Positions 8,873 through 21,930 of a DNA stretch of 22,580 nucleotides are shown piece by piece. The notes below the pieces were generated by a model, which made no database searches, was not told the origin of the DNA, and saw only the letters and a list, made by a program, of their open reading frames with translations. This stretch comes from a virus, in IMG/VR virus record IMGVR_UViG_3300036884_000002, positions 1 to 22,580 of that record; one strand, 5' to 3'. The position numbers and the translations under genes are program-made. How positions within the stretch are numbered: the first letter of the stretch is position 1; each line of letters begins with the position of its first letter.

Positions 8873-9412
8873 TTAAGCCCCCCTTACATTAAGTATATGT
8901 TTCTTTAAATTATGGTTGGCACACAGTGTTTGGTACCCTTTTGGGAATCCTTCGGCAATAAGTTTATTATACAATTGAGCACCTCCACCGCGACCAGTCT
9001 TTGTATATTCTCTTCGATGTTCTGCGCCGTTGTTTTCAATATGGTCAAGGGTTAACATGTCCACATCATTTACTATGCAACCATCCCAACAACATATAAG
9101 TTTTCCATCTTTTCCATAATGGGTCATAACGGATGTCTTATTCTTTTTTTGAGTGTCTCGTCCATTTTTATTAGCCATGGCTCTACAACTTTCACACCTC
9201 AAAACTTCTGAACTAACAGACCCACCACAAGAAATACAAACTTTATCTTGCCTACATTTTTCTCTATAGGACTTTCCCCTCTGTTTCGTTTCGGTTGTAC
9301 ATTCGGGACAGTCTGGTTTTCCCTCAAATGTTGGGTTGCCACAACGAGTGCATAGGTTTTTAGACTTCATATCCTGCCGCCTTTTTTCTATATAGCCCTT
9401 TGCGTCAAACAT
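8873..9412 (-). CDS. Free-standing HNH homing-type endonuclease with zinc ribbons
   Basis: A 179-aa protein with two CxxC...CxxC zinc ribbons (Cys 21, 24, 35, 38 and Cys 59, 62, 73, 76) followed by an HNH nuclease core: LTLDHIENNGAEHRRE (Asp123, His124, His132) and YQTLCANHNLKKH (Cys164, Asn166, His167). It lies between the sheath and tail tube genes, which are normally adjacent, so it is an insertion of a mobile endonuclease gene into the late operon. Its leader is very AT-rich and no strong Shine-Dalgarno precedes its ATG, suggesting low expression. The target is unknown; by analogy with other free-standing phage endonucleases it probably cuts the neighbouring sheath or tube region of related phages. 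Confidence 0.88.
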   Translation of the reverse strand: MFDAKGYIEKRRQDMKSKNLCTRCGNPTFEGKPDCPECTTETKQRGKSYREKCRQDKVCISCGGSVSSEVLRCESCRAMANKNGRDTQKKNKTSVMTHYGKDGKLICCWDGCIVNDVDMLTLDHIENNGAEHRREYTKTGRGGGAQLYNKLIAEGFPKGYQTLCANHNLKKHILNVRGA

Positions 9413-17550: not shown

Positions 17551-19095
17551 CTAATCCTTGGGAACAATCTCTTTACCGGCTGATTCAGCATCAACGCTTT
17601 TATCTGCCAACGGGTCGTCAAGAGTATCTGGACTTTCAAAGTCATCAACAGGAGCAACTATCTCGACATCAAGATCAAGGCTGTCATAGCCGCTGTGAGG
17701 GTCTTTAGAAAGCCTTTCGCGTTCTTCTGAAGGGTCGATCACGCCATTGGAAATATATATCTGGGCGGCCTGGGCATCGTTCAATCTGATTGTGGCCTCT
17801 TCGGCCTCCGTCATTTCATAGAGGGAACAGAAGTTAAATGATATGGTCGGGTCGATCTCGCCATATAGTGATAGCTGAATAACCTTGATAATCGATTCCA
17901 GCGGCGAACGCCAGAAGGATTCTTGTTGTGCCTTTATCCAATCGTAGAACACTCGTATTTCGCCTTCGCTGCTTGCATTCAATCCGCTTGGACTTATGCC
18001 GGTAAGTATCATCGATGGGATTCTCGACACAGAACACATTTGCTCTTGTGACTGAGACTGCAGCTCATGGAGGCCGGAAAGAGGGGTGTTCGTCTGGATA
18101 ATCTCTTCGCGGTCTTTATCAAGAAGCATCAAGCCCTTGTTGCTTCGAGTAGCATTGAATAATACAGCCCTTGCAACAATACCGGAGCCGTCATCACCAC
18201 CGGACAATATACCTTCCATCGAAGTGGCAAGTGCAGTAATTGAAAAGTTGTTAATCAAATCAGATACGCTTTGTCGAGTTCTCAACCAGTTCTCAACGTA
18301 AGGCTCGGCAAGCTGTGACAATGACATACCTGCAAAGTTAAACGCTGGTTTAAGCATATCGGGGAGCGGCCTTGTCACGATAGTAAGCAATCTGCTGGCA
18401 TGTACCTGTTGCCCTAACATGAACCAGCTAGACGGCTTATAGAAGTCAATGGCAGAAGGGTCGACAGCGTTGTAGTCTGATGGAGTAGTCCACATAGCCT
18501 CAACAGCGGATAGCCCTTTTAAGCTACCTACCTTGATTGTCTTGGGTGAAAGTATAAGAGGCTTGGCACTGTCTGCGCCGTTAATACTGATATAGATTTG
18601 ACCACGACCGAAAAAGCAATCATGCGCGGCGGCAAGCTGGAATACACCACGGACATCGAGTTTTTTCATTTCATCCTCAATGCCTTTGATCTTGTCTTTC
18701 GTTGCATCGTCCATGTCTTCACTTGTGCCGTTAAACTCTATCCATTTGCGGGTCAGTTCTGTTGATATGGCACTGGCAAATGATCTATATTCGGCGCGTG
18801 TGGCAAGATATGAAAGATAAGGGAATCCGGGAAAGCCACCACCGGGAAGCTGGCCGCCATACATTTGCGCATATTCGTACTGGTTTGAATCCATTGCAAG
18901 GACGGGAGGGGTGACACCTTTCGGGGCAATGCCCGCAACCAGTTCAGGCGGTTTTATCTCATAAGTGTATGCGGGTGTTTTGTTGCCAATCGCCATTTTA
19001 CCGGCAGCTACTCGCATGTTGGTTGCCAATGATTGTGCAGTTTGTTTACTCGGCGCAATTTTGCGCTCAGTGCTAATAGGTCTTTTACGGCTCAT
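17551..19095 (-). CDS. Portal protein (DUF1073 type)
   Basis: A 514-aa portal of the DUF1073/phage-associated family, the ring at the capsid vertex through which TerL pumps DNA. Visible features are a basic N-terminus, FPYLSYLATRAEYRSFASAISTELTRKWIEF (about 92-122), RGVFQLAAAHDCFFGRGQIYI (about 144-164), and a long stem/crown helix region with ISPSGLNASSEGEIRVFYDWIKAQQESFWRSPLESIIKVIQLSLYG (about 364-409). The last is the 'SP.Glna.ge.e.r.yyd.i...Q......' motif of this family. An acidic tail (DDFESPDTLDDPLAD) follows. GGGGG lies 5 nt before the ATG and is encoded in the end of TerL. Confidence 0.9.
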   Translation of the reverse strand: MSRKRPISTERKIAPSKQTAQSLATNMRVAAGKMAIGNKTPAYTYEIKPPELVAGIAPKGVTPPVLAMDSNQYEYAQMYGGQLPGGGFPGFPYLSYLATRAEYRSFASAISTELTRKWIEFNGTSEDMDDATKDKIKGIEDEMKKLDVRGVFQLAAAHDCFFGRGQIYISINGADSAKPLILSPKTIKVGSLKGLSAVEAMWTTPSDYNAVDPSAIDFYKPSSWFMLGQQVHASRLLTIVTRPLPDMLKPAFNFAGMSLSQLAEPYVENWLRTRQSVSDLINNFSITALATSMEGILSGGDDGSGIVARAVLFNATRSNKGLMLLDKDREEIIQTNTPLSGLHELQSQSQEQMCSVSRIPSMILTGISPSGLNASSEGEIRVFYDWIKAQQESFWRSPLESIIKVIQLSLYGEIDPTISFNFCSLYEMTEAEEATIRLNDAQAAQIYISNGVIDPSEERERLSKDPHSGYDSLDLDVEIVAPVDDFESPDTLDDPLADKSVDAESAGKEIVPKD

Positions 19096-19096
19096 C

Positions 19097-21463
19097 TTAC
19101 CCCCTGCACAACATCTTGTTGATTGCCGCCTGTGATATGTTCAGCCCTGAGAATGTAGGGTATAACCTTCTTAAAGCCTGGGTCATAGCATCACAATTGG
19201 ATACTAAAATTCCGTTAGCGTAATATACCCCGTCAGATTCAACCTTTAGATTATATACAGTTTCTATTTGCGCACTTTTTAGAACAGAACTTTTTGACAC
19301 GAGACGGGTTAATTGGCAAAACTGTGTCATATTTTGACCCGCATTGTTCGCATTTCCTGGTAACATTATACTGTCCTTCTGCCCTTCTGGTTTTGTACCC
19401 ACACAAAGGAGAACAGTAACGTGCATCTTTATTCTTTGCAATAAATTCTTTACCGCACCATACGCAGGAACAAATAACATCTTTCTTTTTGGCTTTTGCA
19501 TGTTCTCTGTGCCATGCTCGGCCCTCTTCGGATTGATGCCATGCGACAGTGAGTGGTCGTATTTTGGCAAGATGTTCAAGATCGTATGTTCCCGGCTCAA
19601 TCTGACGATGTTCTTTACGCGATACTTCGCGTAAGTTTTCAGGGTGGTTGTTGAAAGAATCACCATCGATATGATGAATTTCAAAGCCTTCCTTAGCTGA
19701 CCTTCCATTATGAAATTCCCAAATTGCGACATGGAGGCCCTTAGGACGCTTCCTTCCCTCATTTGTCGTTGACTGGCTAAGATAATACCGTCCCTTCCCT
19801 CCCATGAGTCGGTACTTGATTCCATTGAATTCAATAATTTTAGGATTCTCCATCTGATTAATCTCCTTAGAGATAATATATCACATGAATCCGCTTGTGT
19901 CAAAGCGTCCAATGGCTTAAAGCCATTTTGCGTAAATATCTTATGACTTGCTGTCCCGGTTAGACCATTCTTGTTTATAACATTCTTAATCCTAGTAGGC
20001 CCACAATCTATTACACGGCCAATGCCAAAAGGGGTAATAACGCTATCCCCTACAACCATATCTCTAATAGGCTTATCGCCATCTGGGGTAGAAATCATAG
20101 TATCGCCAACAAAACATTGATCATCGTGCGCCCCCGCTGGAAACGCTGTCAATTCGGAAACAAACTCTTTTACCCACGGTGATATATCTGGATGCGGCAA
20201 GTAAATATTGCCAGCTTCCCAAAATGACGTTACGGCGTGCGCTCTTGCTATCTTGGAGCCATCCGGCTCTATTGGTATGATACCAGGGACGCGCTTTTTG
20301 AGAACATCAATGACGGCTGGCCCGTTCGCTTTGTCCTCAATAAGGATTTCGCGTGTGGCTTTCCATCGGTCGCGTAAGAGTATGACACTTAATACCGTAT
20401 CTGTAAATGATAATCTAGCTCTAATTTGATCAAGCAAATAAGAGTCCGCACCTTTTTTGCCCCATACCTGGCCCACTACAAAGTCAGTGCCGTCTGTGTC
20501 CTTGAACGTGCAATCCCATGATGCAATCACTTTGTCAAACTTTGTCGGCAGGTCTTTAGGCAGATAATACTTGATACTTGATTCTTTGAATATGTTGCCA
20601 CCAAGGGATTTAGGCGATTGCTGGAACATTGCCGACCACCAATAATCAGATGATTCGGCTTTGAGTTCAAGCAATTGTTCAAGGGGGTGCAGTTCGGGTA
20701 CAAGCGGCCCCAACGGTAAATCGGGGTTATATCCCACCTCGCCAGGGTCATTGATTGCCGGGAATTTCAAGACAGTAAGGCGCGGGTCTCCACGGTGTAA
20801 GTCAATAATACGGGCCGACAGGTCATCCTCGGCCCATGACGTAGCCATGATGATCTGCCCAGAGTTTGCCGACATACGGGTTTTACATGTAGATTGATAC
20901 CAATTCCAGTGGCCTTCCTTTACTGTTGGGCTAAGAGCTTCCTGAGCATTTTTTATTGGATCGTCGATAATAAAAATATCTGCTGCGCGGCCAGTGAAAC
21001 CACCGCCGACACCATCGCCGATATATCCGCCTTTTCCATTAGGGGAGCTGAATTCCCCATTACGGTTGATTGAGTATTTGCGTTTTTCTTCTGGTTCGGG
21101 GAATAGTGCTAGATGTTCGGGAGATACAAGGTTGCGTCTCACATCCAGAGACATTGAATCAGCAAGAGTTGACGAATAACTAGCGGCGGCAATCCTCCAA
21201 TCAGGAAACTTGCCTAGTAGATATGCAGGTAACTGGCGGCTTGCCATTTCCGACTTACCCATTTGAGGCGGAGCCTGTAATATCAATACCGGTCTGAACC
21301 CGTTTTGACAATCAACGATAAATTTATCAAGGGCTTGGCATACGGCAGTAGAGAATCTTGAATGAACAAAAGATTTGTTTACGTAGGATATATAGTCTTG
21401 TAGGGATTTGCGAGCCTGACGGCGTTTGTATAGCTCTGCAGCGATATCGGATTGTTTGATCAT
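19097..21463 (-). CDS. Terminase large subunit interrupted by an intein
   Basis: A 788-residue precursor. Removing the intein leaves 481 residues (449 + 32), a normal TerL length. ATPase motifs: Walker A-like APPQMGKS at 64-71 and Walker B IIDD at 165-168. The C-terminal nuclease has SWD (Asp317), IEDKANG (Glu376/Asp377) and HDDQ|CDA, where the third acidic motif (Asp447/Asp448) is directly followed by the intein. TerL cuts concatemeric DNA and drives packaging at the portal. The ATG overlaps the terminase small subunit stop in ATGA with only a weak Shine-Dalgarno, so translation is coupled. Function should require splicing, because the intein splits the nuclease motif and removes the last helix. 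Confidence 0.92.
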   Translation of the reverse strand: MIKQSDIAAELYKRRQARKSLQDYISYVNKSFVHSRFSTAVCQALDKFIVDCQNGFRPVLILQAPPQMGKSEMASRQLPAYLLGKFPDWRIAAASYSSTLADSMSLDVRRNLVSPEHLALFPEPEEKRKYSINRNGEFSSPNGKGGYIGDGVGGGFTGRAADIFIIDDPIKNAQEALSPTVKEGHWNWYQSTCKTRMSANSGQIIMATSWAEDDLSARIIDLHRGDPRLTVLKFPAINDPGEVGYNPDLPLGPLVPELHPLEQLLELKAESSDYWWSAMFQQSPKSLGGNIFKESSIKYYLPKDLPTKFDKVIASWDCTFKDTDGTDFVVGQVWGKKGADSYLLDQIRARLSFTDTVLSVILLRDRWKATREILIEDKANGPAVIDVLKKRVPGIIPIEPDGSKIARAHAVTSFWEAGNIYLPHPDISPWVKEFVSELTAFPAGAHDDQCFVGDTMISTPDGDKPIRDMVVGDSVITPFGIGRVIDCGPTRIKNVINKNGLTGTASHKIFTQNGFKPLDALTQADSCDILSLRRLIRWRILKLLNSMESSTDSWEGRDGIILASQRQMREGSVLRASMSQFGNFIMEGQLRKALKFIISMVILSTTTLKTYAKYRVKNIVRLSREHTILNILPKYDHSLSHGINPKRAEHGTENMQKPKRKMLFVPAYGAVKNLLQRIKMHVTVLLCVGTKPEGQKDSIMLPGNANNAGQNMTQFCQLTRLVSKSSVLKSAQIETVYNLKVESDGVYYANGILVSNCDAMTQALRRLYPTFSGLNISQAAINKMLCRG
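19196..20116 (-). other. TerL intein (307 aa) without an in-frame endonuclease domain
   Basis: Residue 1 is Cys (codon 20116-20114). Block A is CFVGDTMISTPDGDKPIRDM; block B is GLTGTASHKIF with Thr55 and His58; blocks F/G are ETVYNLKVESDGVYYANGILVSN, followed by Cys+1 (19195-19193). These are the residues of a standard Cys1/Asn307/Cys+1 intein. Two positions differ from the common pattern: Ser306 replaces the penultimate His, and Gly replaces the usual block F His. Residues about 88-270 have no recognisable endonuclease or splicing motif. They are the TerL-frame reading of the HNH gene that lies in another frame. Without that stretch the intein would be mini-intein sized, about 125 residues. 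Splicing is inferred, not shown. Confidence 0.92.
19251..19853 (-). CDS. HNH homing endonuclease nested out of frame inside the intein
   Basis: A complete 200-aa gene in a frame different from TerL. ATG at 19853 has TAAGGAG (19869-19863) 9 nt upstream; a TGA ten codons upstream closes the frame, so it is not a fusion to the intein N-terminus. Residues 10-85 form an HNH_3-type domain: FNGIKYRLMGGKGRYYL, HVAIWEFHNG, then IHHIDGDSFNNHPENL (His60/61, Asn69, Asn73) and REVSRKEHRQ. Two Cys4 zinc-binding units follow (Cys 128 or 130, 133, 147, 151; Cys 168, 171, 190, 194). It probably cuts intein-free TerL genes so the intein spreads. Its last ~20 codons overlap the intein's C-terminal splicing segment. 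Confidence 0.92.
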   Translation of the reverse strand: MENPKIIEFNGIKYRLMGGKGRYYLSQSTTNEGRKRPKGLHVAIWEFHNGRSAKEGFEIHHIDGDSFNNHPENLREVSRKEHRQIEPGTYDLEHLAKIRPLTVAWHQSEEGRAWHREHAKAKKKDVICSCVWCGKEFIAKNKDARYCSPLCGYKTRRAEGQYNVTRKCEQCGSKYDTVLPINPSRVKKFCSKKCANRNCI

Positions 21464-21930
21464 TTGCCAGCGGCAATCATAGCGAGTAGTTGTTCGTCGG
21501 TTAACTCGGCGACGTTTTGCGTTTTGATGGGGCCGCCGTCAAGGCCAGATACTTCCTGGGTAATCTTTTCGCCATACTTTTTGGCATTCAGCTTTGATAA
21601 AGCCCATTTCATGTTATCGCATTCAATCCTTGCCATAGCAATAGCGTCTTTAGGTTCCCAGCCTTCGGCAATATATTTCTTGACTGTCTCTCCGGCAGCG
21701 TCTTGGTATTCGTCAAACCGATAATCAGTCATCAGCGTTCGCGCGTGCGTGTACTGGTTGGCTAGTTCCTCGTTGTCATTGCACCACCCGATGATTGAAC
21801 TATGACTAGGTATTCCCTCTACGCTTTTGCATATTCGCCTGAGTGACTGCCCCTCTGCCATGCAAGCGCACACAATATCCATTATGCGTTGTCTATATTC
21901 TTCTTGTGTTTCGTTATCGGGTTTTTTCAT
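21460..21930 (-). CDS. Terminase small subunit
   Basis: A 156-aa protein directly before TerL, overlapping its start by 4 bp. The N-terminal part is a helix-turn-helix DNA-binding region: EEYRQRIMDIVCACMAEGQSLRRICKSVEGIPSHSSIIGWCNDNEEL, as in small terminases and terminase-small-like proteins that recognise the packaging site. A helical middle (TLMTDYRFDEYQDAAGETVKKYIAEG) and the conserved IECDNMKWALSKLNAKKYGEKI segment (about 105-126) follow; the latter pattern is common in this family. The tail ELTDEQLLAMIAAGK may contact TerL. Its ATG overlaps the stop of the 50-aa gene in ATGA. Confidence 0.85.
   Translation of the reverse strand: MKKPDNETQEEYRQRIMDIVCACMAEGQSLRRICKSVEGIPSHSSIIGWCNDNEELANQYTHARTLMTDYRFDEYQDAAGETVKKYIAEGWEPKDAIAMARIECDNMKWALSKLNAKKYGEKITQEVSGLDGGPIKTQNVAELTDEQLLAMIAAGK

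Follow-up and report, generated by a model that had tools for sequence, protein, structure and literature searches.

The virus record IMGVR_UViG_3300036884_000002 of IMG/VR carries, inside its gene for the large terminase subunit (terL; protein TerL), an intein whose DNA also encodes an HNH nuclease in a different reading frame. The window analysed here comprises all 22,580 bases of the record, which comes from a tailed phage whose tail module is of the contractile type (baseplate J, baseplate hub). The features of the locus are listed below with the evidence for each in brackets.

19097..21463, minus strand: terL gene including the intein, a single 788-codon frame (Terminase_6N and Terminase_6C; PHROG TerL families)
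20117..21463, minus strand: TerL N-extein, residues 1-449, whose last residues, HDDQ, lie within the nuclease motif (Terminase domains; intein-free relatives)
19196..20116, minus strand: intein, residues 450-756, 307 amino acids (aa) (Hint_2; intein_Cterm; conserved residues; HINT fold predicted by AlphaFold2, AF2; Foldseek match to gp41-1)
19854..20116, minus strand: N-terminal splicing half, blocks A and B (motifs; predicted local distance difference test score, pLDDT, of 90-98 in the first 90 residues)
19943..19954, minus strand: block B TxxH, here TASH (near-invariant T55 and invariant H58 in relatives)
19863..19869, minus strand: Shine-Dalgarno-like TAAGGAG of the HNH gene (predicted duplex energy -9.1 kcal/mol)
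19251..19853, minus strand: out-of-frame HNH endonuclease gene, ATG to TAA, 200 aa (HNH_3 core and two CxxC zinc fingers)
19196..19261, minus strand: C-terminal splicing half, blocks F and G, last residues SN (TIGR01443)
19100..19195, minus strand: TerL C-extein, whose first residue is the +1 Cys (CDAMTQALRRL) (alignment to intein-free relatives)

The TerL frame has the anatomy of a class 1 intein. TerL domains occupy residues 62-215 and 315-449 of the window protein, C450 follows HDDQ directly, block B supplies T504 and H507, and blocks F and G terminate in VSN before a +1 Cys (VSN|C). Cys1 in block A, the block B TxxH and the block G Asn with its +1 Cys are thus all present. Positions C1, T55, H58 and N307 of the intein align across 50 relatives, T55 being near-invariant and the other three invariant, and the HINT fold of the class is found in the predicted AF2 model. 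The original prediction, made from the letters of the window, of a 307-codon intein with blocks A, B, F and G in the TerL frame is therefore borne out by the motifs, by a match above cut-off to NCBIfam intein_Cterm (TIGR01443) and by a match just below cut-off to Pfam Hint_2. The intein is in frame with both exteins at a conserved TerL site that is empty in relatives, the close ones (65-79% identical) reading NDDQ|VDALTQAL or HDDQ|VDAMTQAL at exactly this point. A search of phage records found no near DNA relatives of the window intein.

The HNH gene lies where in-frame endonuclease domains sit in inteins. It runs from an ATG at 19853 to a TAA at 19251 in a frame different from that of terL, and its 3′ end overlaps the first codons of block F and the C-terminal splicing half. 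Its product matches Pfam HNH_3 at 5.6e-15, which confirms the HNH gene of 200 codons that had been predicted along with a TAAGGAG, ATG and TAA of its own. Within the family alignment H60, H61, N69, N73, H82 and the zinc cysteines are invariant, and the profile matches the homing enzyme I-HmuI (1u3e, E 2.4e-4). Both the catalytic motif and the DNA-binding part of an HNH homing endonuclease are therefore recognizable (HNH_3, two CxxC zinc fingers, I-HmuI similarity). Predicted Shine-Dalgarno strength at HNH starts exceeds background (mean -6.0 versus -3.8 kcal/mol; 82 genes, P = 1.5e-9), with nested starts weaker than those of non-nested relatives (mean -8.7 kcal/mol).

Several familiar arrangements do not describe this locus. 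The endonuclease of a conventional bifunctional intein is in the host frame, whereas this HNH gene is in another; a fractured gene with a split intein has two open reading frames (ORFs) with one intein half each, whereas here there is a single 788-codon ORF. A group I intron carrying a homing endonuclease gene was rejected because an Rfam search of 18900-21500 (E up to 0.1) gave no match.

The nested layout among relatives

The two frames of the window recur at many loci. A separate contig of 99% identity (L012/L092) carries both, and an HNH gene lies out of the terL frame within the annotated terL of Acinetobacter phage Highwayman, Tetrasphaera phage TJE1, and Rhodobacteraceae phage LS06-2018-MD07, in whose records TerL is the sole annotation at the nested locus. 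Scans of IMG/VR together with named phages gave 105 loci with this HNH family, of which 73 are nested, with a host frame of 500 to 1,130 codons open across the entire HNH gene. The register is HNH+1 in 73/73, never HNH+2, and in every one of these HNH-selected loci the host frame holds both intein halves with intact catalytic residues. Insertion sites are TerL nuclease motifs, such as HDD|C, EDH|C, NDH|C and SPDR|C. Most nested hosts scanned (55/60) match the PHROG TerL family phrog_2, and Terminase_3, Terminase_6 and GpA types are included. The anatomy is constant: the median intein measures 319 aa, and the median distance is 90 residues from Cys1 to the start of the HNH gene and 19 residues from its end to the terminal Asn. 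A further 19 nested loci with both halves come from bacterial and archaeal genome contigs, ranging from Rhizobium lusitanum and Beijerinckia mobilis to Bacteroides, Thermoplasmatales and Nitrosotalea; at two of them (L196 and L216) the site reads as TerL Walker-B.

To avoid circularity we also scanned with the N-terminal half of the intein only, using a closer set of intein N-termini as query (a set of 34 had no conserved stretch). In this HNH-independent sample, 47/51 complete inteins contain the HNH gene out of frame and in one register. An HNH gene in frame with the intein, which the original prediction had named as counter-evidence, occurs in 0/51, and the remaining four comprise two mini-inteins, one in-frame LAGLIDADG, and one different nested gene. 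The same kind of query among named phages returned two TerL inteins at this site without HNH (vir335 and Microcystis Mic1). Highwayman and BP10 were considered as an intein plus/minus pair and proved unusable, their TerLs being only 27% alike. At L300-L302, an intein with a nested HNH gene lies at EDVD|TAGEDH and the host ORF stops a few residues past it, perhaps a second terL interruption.

Selection on the two frames

Openness of the host frame is a family-wide property that chance does not explain. Shuffling of synonymous codons, which leaves HNH protein and codon usage unchanged, predicts 157 host-frame stops in 62 distinct nested genes (12,452 codons), a class defined by its open host frame, and none is observed. 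The third frame of the same genes shows no comparable depletion (1,124 stops versus 1,174 expected), nor does the corresponding frame of 25 non-nested relatives of the nuclease (182 versus 193, with no stop-free gene). Host-frame stops, whose frequent occurrence in relatives would have spoken against the predicted layout, are confined to non-nested genes, either free-standing or in a fractured terL with split inteins. For the window alone the shuffles contain a mean of 3.6 host-frame stops and ~0.4% contain none (P ~ 0.004); odds of about 1 in 15,000 had been proposed and were too strong, because the host frame of the window is naturally stop-poor. A chance open frame is thus rejected across the family (0 versus 157 stops), even though the window by itself gives P = 0.004.

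Amino acid conservation falls on the HNH frame. Identity in this frame exceeds host-frame identity in 785/785 nested pairs compared, and its third codon position varies most. Within the overlap, host-frame identity is 0.22 (at an HNH identity of 0.42), equal to the third-frame value (0.21) and to what non-nested relatives show in the corresponding frame (0.20). Since the HNH frame is conserved and host-frame identity stays at third-frame level, selection on the overlap acts for the HNH protein, the host frame being only kept open. Across the overlap the HNH frame is conserved and the host frame depleted of stops, with host-frame residues not otherwise conserved.

Predicted structures agree with selection for the HNH protein and for openness only in the host frame. 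In AF2 models, built from alignments with rows from named phage records left out, the first 90 and last 27 intein residues of the terL frame form a confident HINT fold (pLDDT 90-98), and the middle, at pLDDT 40-84 and mostly <70, is predicted to be disordered; the HNH frame of the overlap DNA reaches a mean pLDDT of 92. A Foldseek search with the HINT model gave the gp41-1 intein as best match and also matched DnaB inteins. A functional domain in the host-frame overlap is unsupported, given its low AF2 confidence and an identity equal to that of the third frame and non-nested relatives.

Nested HNH genes translated in the host frame appear to be among the members of the public PHROG families 30251 and 35162; the latter, phrog_35162, has unknown function and matches residues 583-762, mostly in the overlap region.

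Mobility and competing explanations

Two pairs of relatives carry near-identical intein and HNH blocks in diverged terL genes. In L060/L077 a 960-base intein is 99-100% identical, against 69-94% for upstream terL sequence past the first 100 bases and 56-95% for the downstream part. In L042/L047 a 912-base intein is identical along with 500 bases of flank, and terL further upstream is 53-75% identical. Both patterns match what homing with limited co-conversion would predict, and such blocks indicate that the element probably homes; transfer into empty alleles is thus seen indirectly, via these pairs.

We consider it very probable that the window element is a mobile terL intein with a homing endonuclease gene in a different reading frame. 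Its anatomy, intact catalytic residues, two open frames, selection on the HNH protein, selection against host-frame stops and block transfer are apparent from the sequences compared, and the cis-splicing intein with an overlapping, separately translated HNH gene that was originally proposed is supported by every sequence test made. Ribosomes reading terL would traverse the whole 921-base insert, because the terL frame is kept free of stops. The N- and C-terminal splicing halves of the precursor would then fold together and excise the 307-aa intein, whose middle, translated from the alternative frame of the HNH gene, would be unstructured. Initiation by other ribosomes at the internal Shine-Dalgarno and ATG would yield the HNH protein as a separate 200-aa product with two zinc fingers. 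This enzyme would cut or nick intein-free terL at the conserved nuclease-motif site, and repair would copy intein and HNH gene into the cut gene.

Several points weigh against this explanation. The open second frame in the window alone is moderately unlikely (P = 0.004). In the HNH-selected sample the nested class was defined by openness, so its zero stops arise partly by construction and the argument is carried by the non-nested controls and the HNH-independent sample. A Foldseek search with the whole HNH model gave no significant match, and the Shine-Dalgarno is weak or absent at some nested HNH genes. Finally, we infer splicing, internal initiation and expression, cleavage and site specificity from sequence features.

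Other explanations of the locus fare worse. An ordinary intein with an in-frame HNH domain, disguised by sequencing or assembly frameshifts, would suit a metagenomic contig in which the HNH gene sits exactly at the usual place of in-frame endonuclease domains; we regard it as practically negligible, as the two frames recur in one register in the independent 99% contig, the named phages and about a hundred other loci, and the HNH gene has its own Shine-Dalgarno, start and stop. Independent contigs and named phages likewise reject assembly error generally, and the assembly double frameshift that the original prediction had itself raised is excluded by the shared layout of the 99%-identical contig and three named phages. 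It is highly improbable that the intein halves no longer splice and TerL retains the insert, a fate proposed for the insertion in the ShiLan methylase, where the out-of-frame logic is the same (PMC11855218). All nucleophiles and helper residues are kept in 73/73 loci, a HINT fold is predicted, the insert disrupts an essential TerL nuclease motif, and mycobacteriophage TerL inteins at other sites splice (PMC5050341). Equally, an untranslated HNH gene, the decayed relic of an intein now immobile, would fit the nested genes that lack a good Shine-Dalgarno, yet it is very unlikely given conservation of the HNH protein over deep divergence with invariant catalytic residues and zinc cysteines, the greatest variability at third codon positions in its frame, and recent movement of intein and HNH blocks.

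The last two alternatives concern the function and synthesis of the HNH protein, and to each we give a small chance. It might be a partner of TerL in packaging, not homing: the gene is always inside or beside terL, most of its non-nested relatives are flanked by terL and the portal gene, and HK97-type HNH proteins adjoining terminase are reported to serve packaging, according to work cited in a passage of PMC12613952. Against such a role, the HNH intein is sporadic among close TerL relatives, intein and HNH gene have been transferred as a block between diverged terL genes, the protein resembles the homing enzyme I-HmuI, and nested nucleases occur at other sites and in a helicase (below). Alternatively, programmed ribosomal frameshifting from the terL frame, not internal initiation, might produce the protein, as weak Shine-Dalgarno sequences at some HNH starts would allow. 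This sits poorly with HNH ORFs that open shortly before a start codon with enriched Shine-Dalgarno strength, and the product, TerL plus half an intein ending at the HNH stop, would be a truncated TerL.

Related arrangements and their significance

Nested nucleases of other types suggest repeated origin of the layout. Five contigs (L128 and L130-L133), including one whose TerL is 88% identical to that of the window (L128), have no nuclease-motif intein and carry another intein at the TerL Walker-B site, again with an out-of-frame HNH gene. This HNH is of a different type (HNH_1 type) in a register opposite to that of the window family; 15/15 of its loci are nested (9 distinct genes), and each distinct gene has 0 host-frame stops versus 7-17 expected. 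A DUF559-type nuclease lies out of frame in an SNF2/DEAD helicase intein (VIVDE|C..HN|CNAYKT) at L296 (2652-4496 and 3607-4356), the one informative contig for this case, L303 being a truncated copy. The Walker-B family and this helicase intein together suggest that nesting arose more than once. Separately, L240 and L245 have a TerL frame of ~1,100 codons apparently interrupted twice, by the Walker-B intein and by another that follows 'RLMPGG.IV.IQ|C'.

The same HNH family occurs beside split and intein-free terL genes. In about a dozen and a half non-nested loci terL is fractured: the N half of a split intein ends one ORF and the HNH gene is next. Where the C half was found, it begins within an ORF of its own that overlaps the end of the HNH gene, in register HNH+1 in 9/10. 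The fractured loci are:

Fractured terL with both split-intein halves: L051, L069, L078/L079, L164, L165, L166, L179, L182, L192
Fractured terL with the N half only: L028, L061/L063/L064, L170, L180, L185, L191

Free-standing family members lie immediately 3′ of intein-free terL at L004, L005, L009, L010, L011, L026, L027, L031, L039, L045, L082 and L085. An HNH tree mixes nested, split and free states (about 20 label changes versus 37 when shuffled; unrooted, with many weak branches) and groups nested L091 and L198 with split L069 and L185. This mixing would fit interconversion of the three states, and the original view of the nested intein as an intermediate toward fractured genes fits the data as well; the unrooted tree gives no direction or order. 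Many fractured terL genes with split inteins are located in Firmicutes prophages and metagenome-assembled genomes, a source of natural split inteins. Elsewhere in the window (8873-9412, minus strand), a gene between the DUF3383 (tail sheath-like) gene and the next tail gene encodes a 179-aa protein that resembles a separate free-standing nuclease: its cysteines are zinc-ribbon-like and one stretch, 'LDHIENNG..H', is HNH-like; in Pfam it has a weak DZR match only.

Dassa et al. reportedly described, in 2009, fractured genes in which split inteins are accompanied by free-standing homing endonucleases. AceL NrdHF is a fractured gene of this kind (PMC7891396). Like these, the window has an intein with a separately encoded endonuclease between its splicing halves, and the same HNH family occurs in fractured terL genes; unlike them, its host gene is one continuous frame with a cis intein, overlapped by the endonuclease in another frame. 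Conventional mobile TerL inteins share the TerL host, the HINT splicing domain and an endonuclease between blocks B and F. Those of mycobacteriophages (a-g) occupy seven sites, all in the ATPase domain (Kelley et al. 2016, PMC5050341), and those with tested endonucleases have in-frame LAGLIDADG domains, whereas the window endonuclease is out of frame, HNH, and at a site in the TerL nuclease motif. The window protein resembles phage HNH homing endonucleases such as I-HmuI in HNH core and profile; I-HmuI is encoded in a group I intron, and none was found at the window locus (18900-21500).

The closest published case is the ShiLan methylase insertion, an out-of-frame HNH without an intein. The ShiLan domain and the Pacc40 gp60 insertion (Arsenault, Gosselin, Gogarten 2025, PMC11855218) are likewise phage-gene inserts open in the host frame, with a zinc-finger HNH in another frame and a patchy distribution. 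The ShiLan insert lies in a DNA methylase, has no intein motifs or HINT fold, is thought to be retained in the protein, and has no detectable ribosome-binding site. The window family, by contrast, has an intact intein as carrier, a TerL host, Shine-Dalgarno sites and about a hundred loci; the window thus shares the out-of-frame HNH in a host-open insertion, and its intein motifs set it apart. The originally proposed third arrangement stands as an intein with an overlapping endonuclease, but is not unique, since it belongs to a large family and an out-of-frame HNH without intein has been published (PMC11855218). On overlapping reading frames, a passage of that article cites a preprint by Gosselin, Arsenault and Gogarten on actinobacteriophage inteins with 'non-canonical architecture'. 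We found no published description of an intein with an out-of-frame endonuclease, in a search that did not cover the preprint bioRxiv 2025.01.02.630785, which may overlap. The nested layout is a widespread, largely unnoticed form of selfish element, with about a hundred further examples in genes of phages and prophages.

In the usual teaching, an intein has its endonuclease fused within the protein. One large terL intein family reverses this rule, with the endonuclease a separate out-of-frame gene in 47/51 cases of the HNH-independent sample. Nesting out of frame would let the endonuclease be translated apart from the host protein and might, as originally proposed, separate endonuclease dose from TerL dose. 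It explains public annotation of such genes as a long 'terminase' with a featureless middle; the endonuclease content of phage inteins has consequently been undercounted. Tentatively, and at somewhat less than even chances, inteins with overprinted endonucleases might be a major, repeatedly evolved phage class, in which free-standing genes (HNH_3 in TerL, HNH_1 at Walker-B, DUF559 in a helicase) were captured whole by mini-inteins in whichever frame stayed open, giving mobility without in-frame fusion. A single stop and a new start would then fracture the host gene and split its nested intein, so that natural split inteins would derive, wholly or in part, from nested ones. The high interest of the family rests on its breadth, apparent repeated origin and testability. 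It provides a large natural collection of long overlaps between genes on the same strand, where the only constraint on one of the frames is to be stop-free. It also forms a natural series among closely related loci, in which the endonuclease gene adjoins terL, overlaps a cis intein out of frame, or separates split-intein halves, and the origin of split inteins and fractured genes therefore becomes testable.

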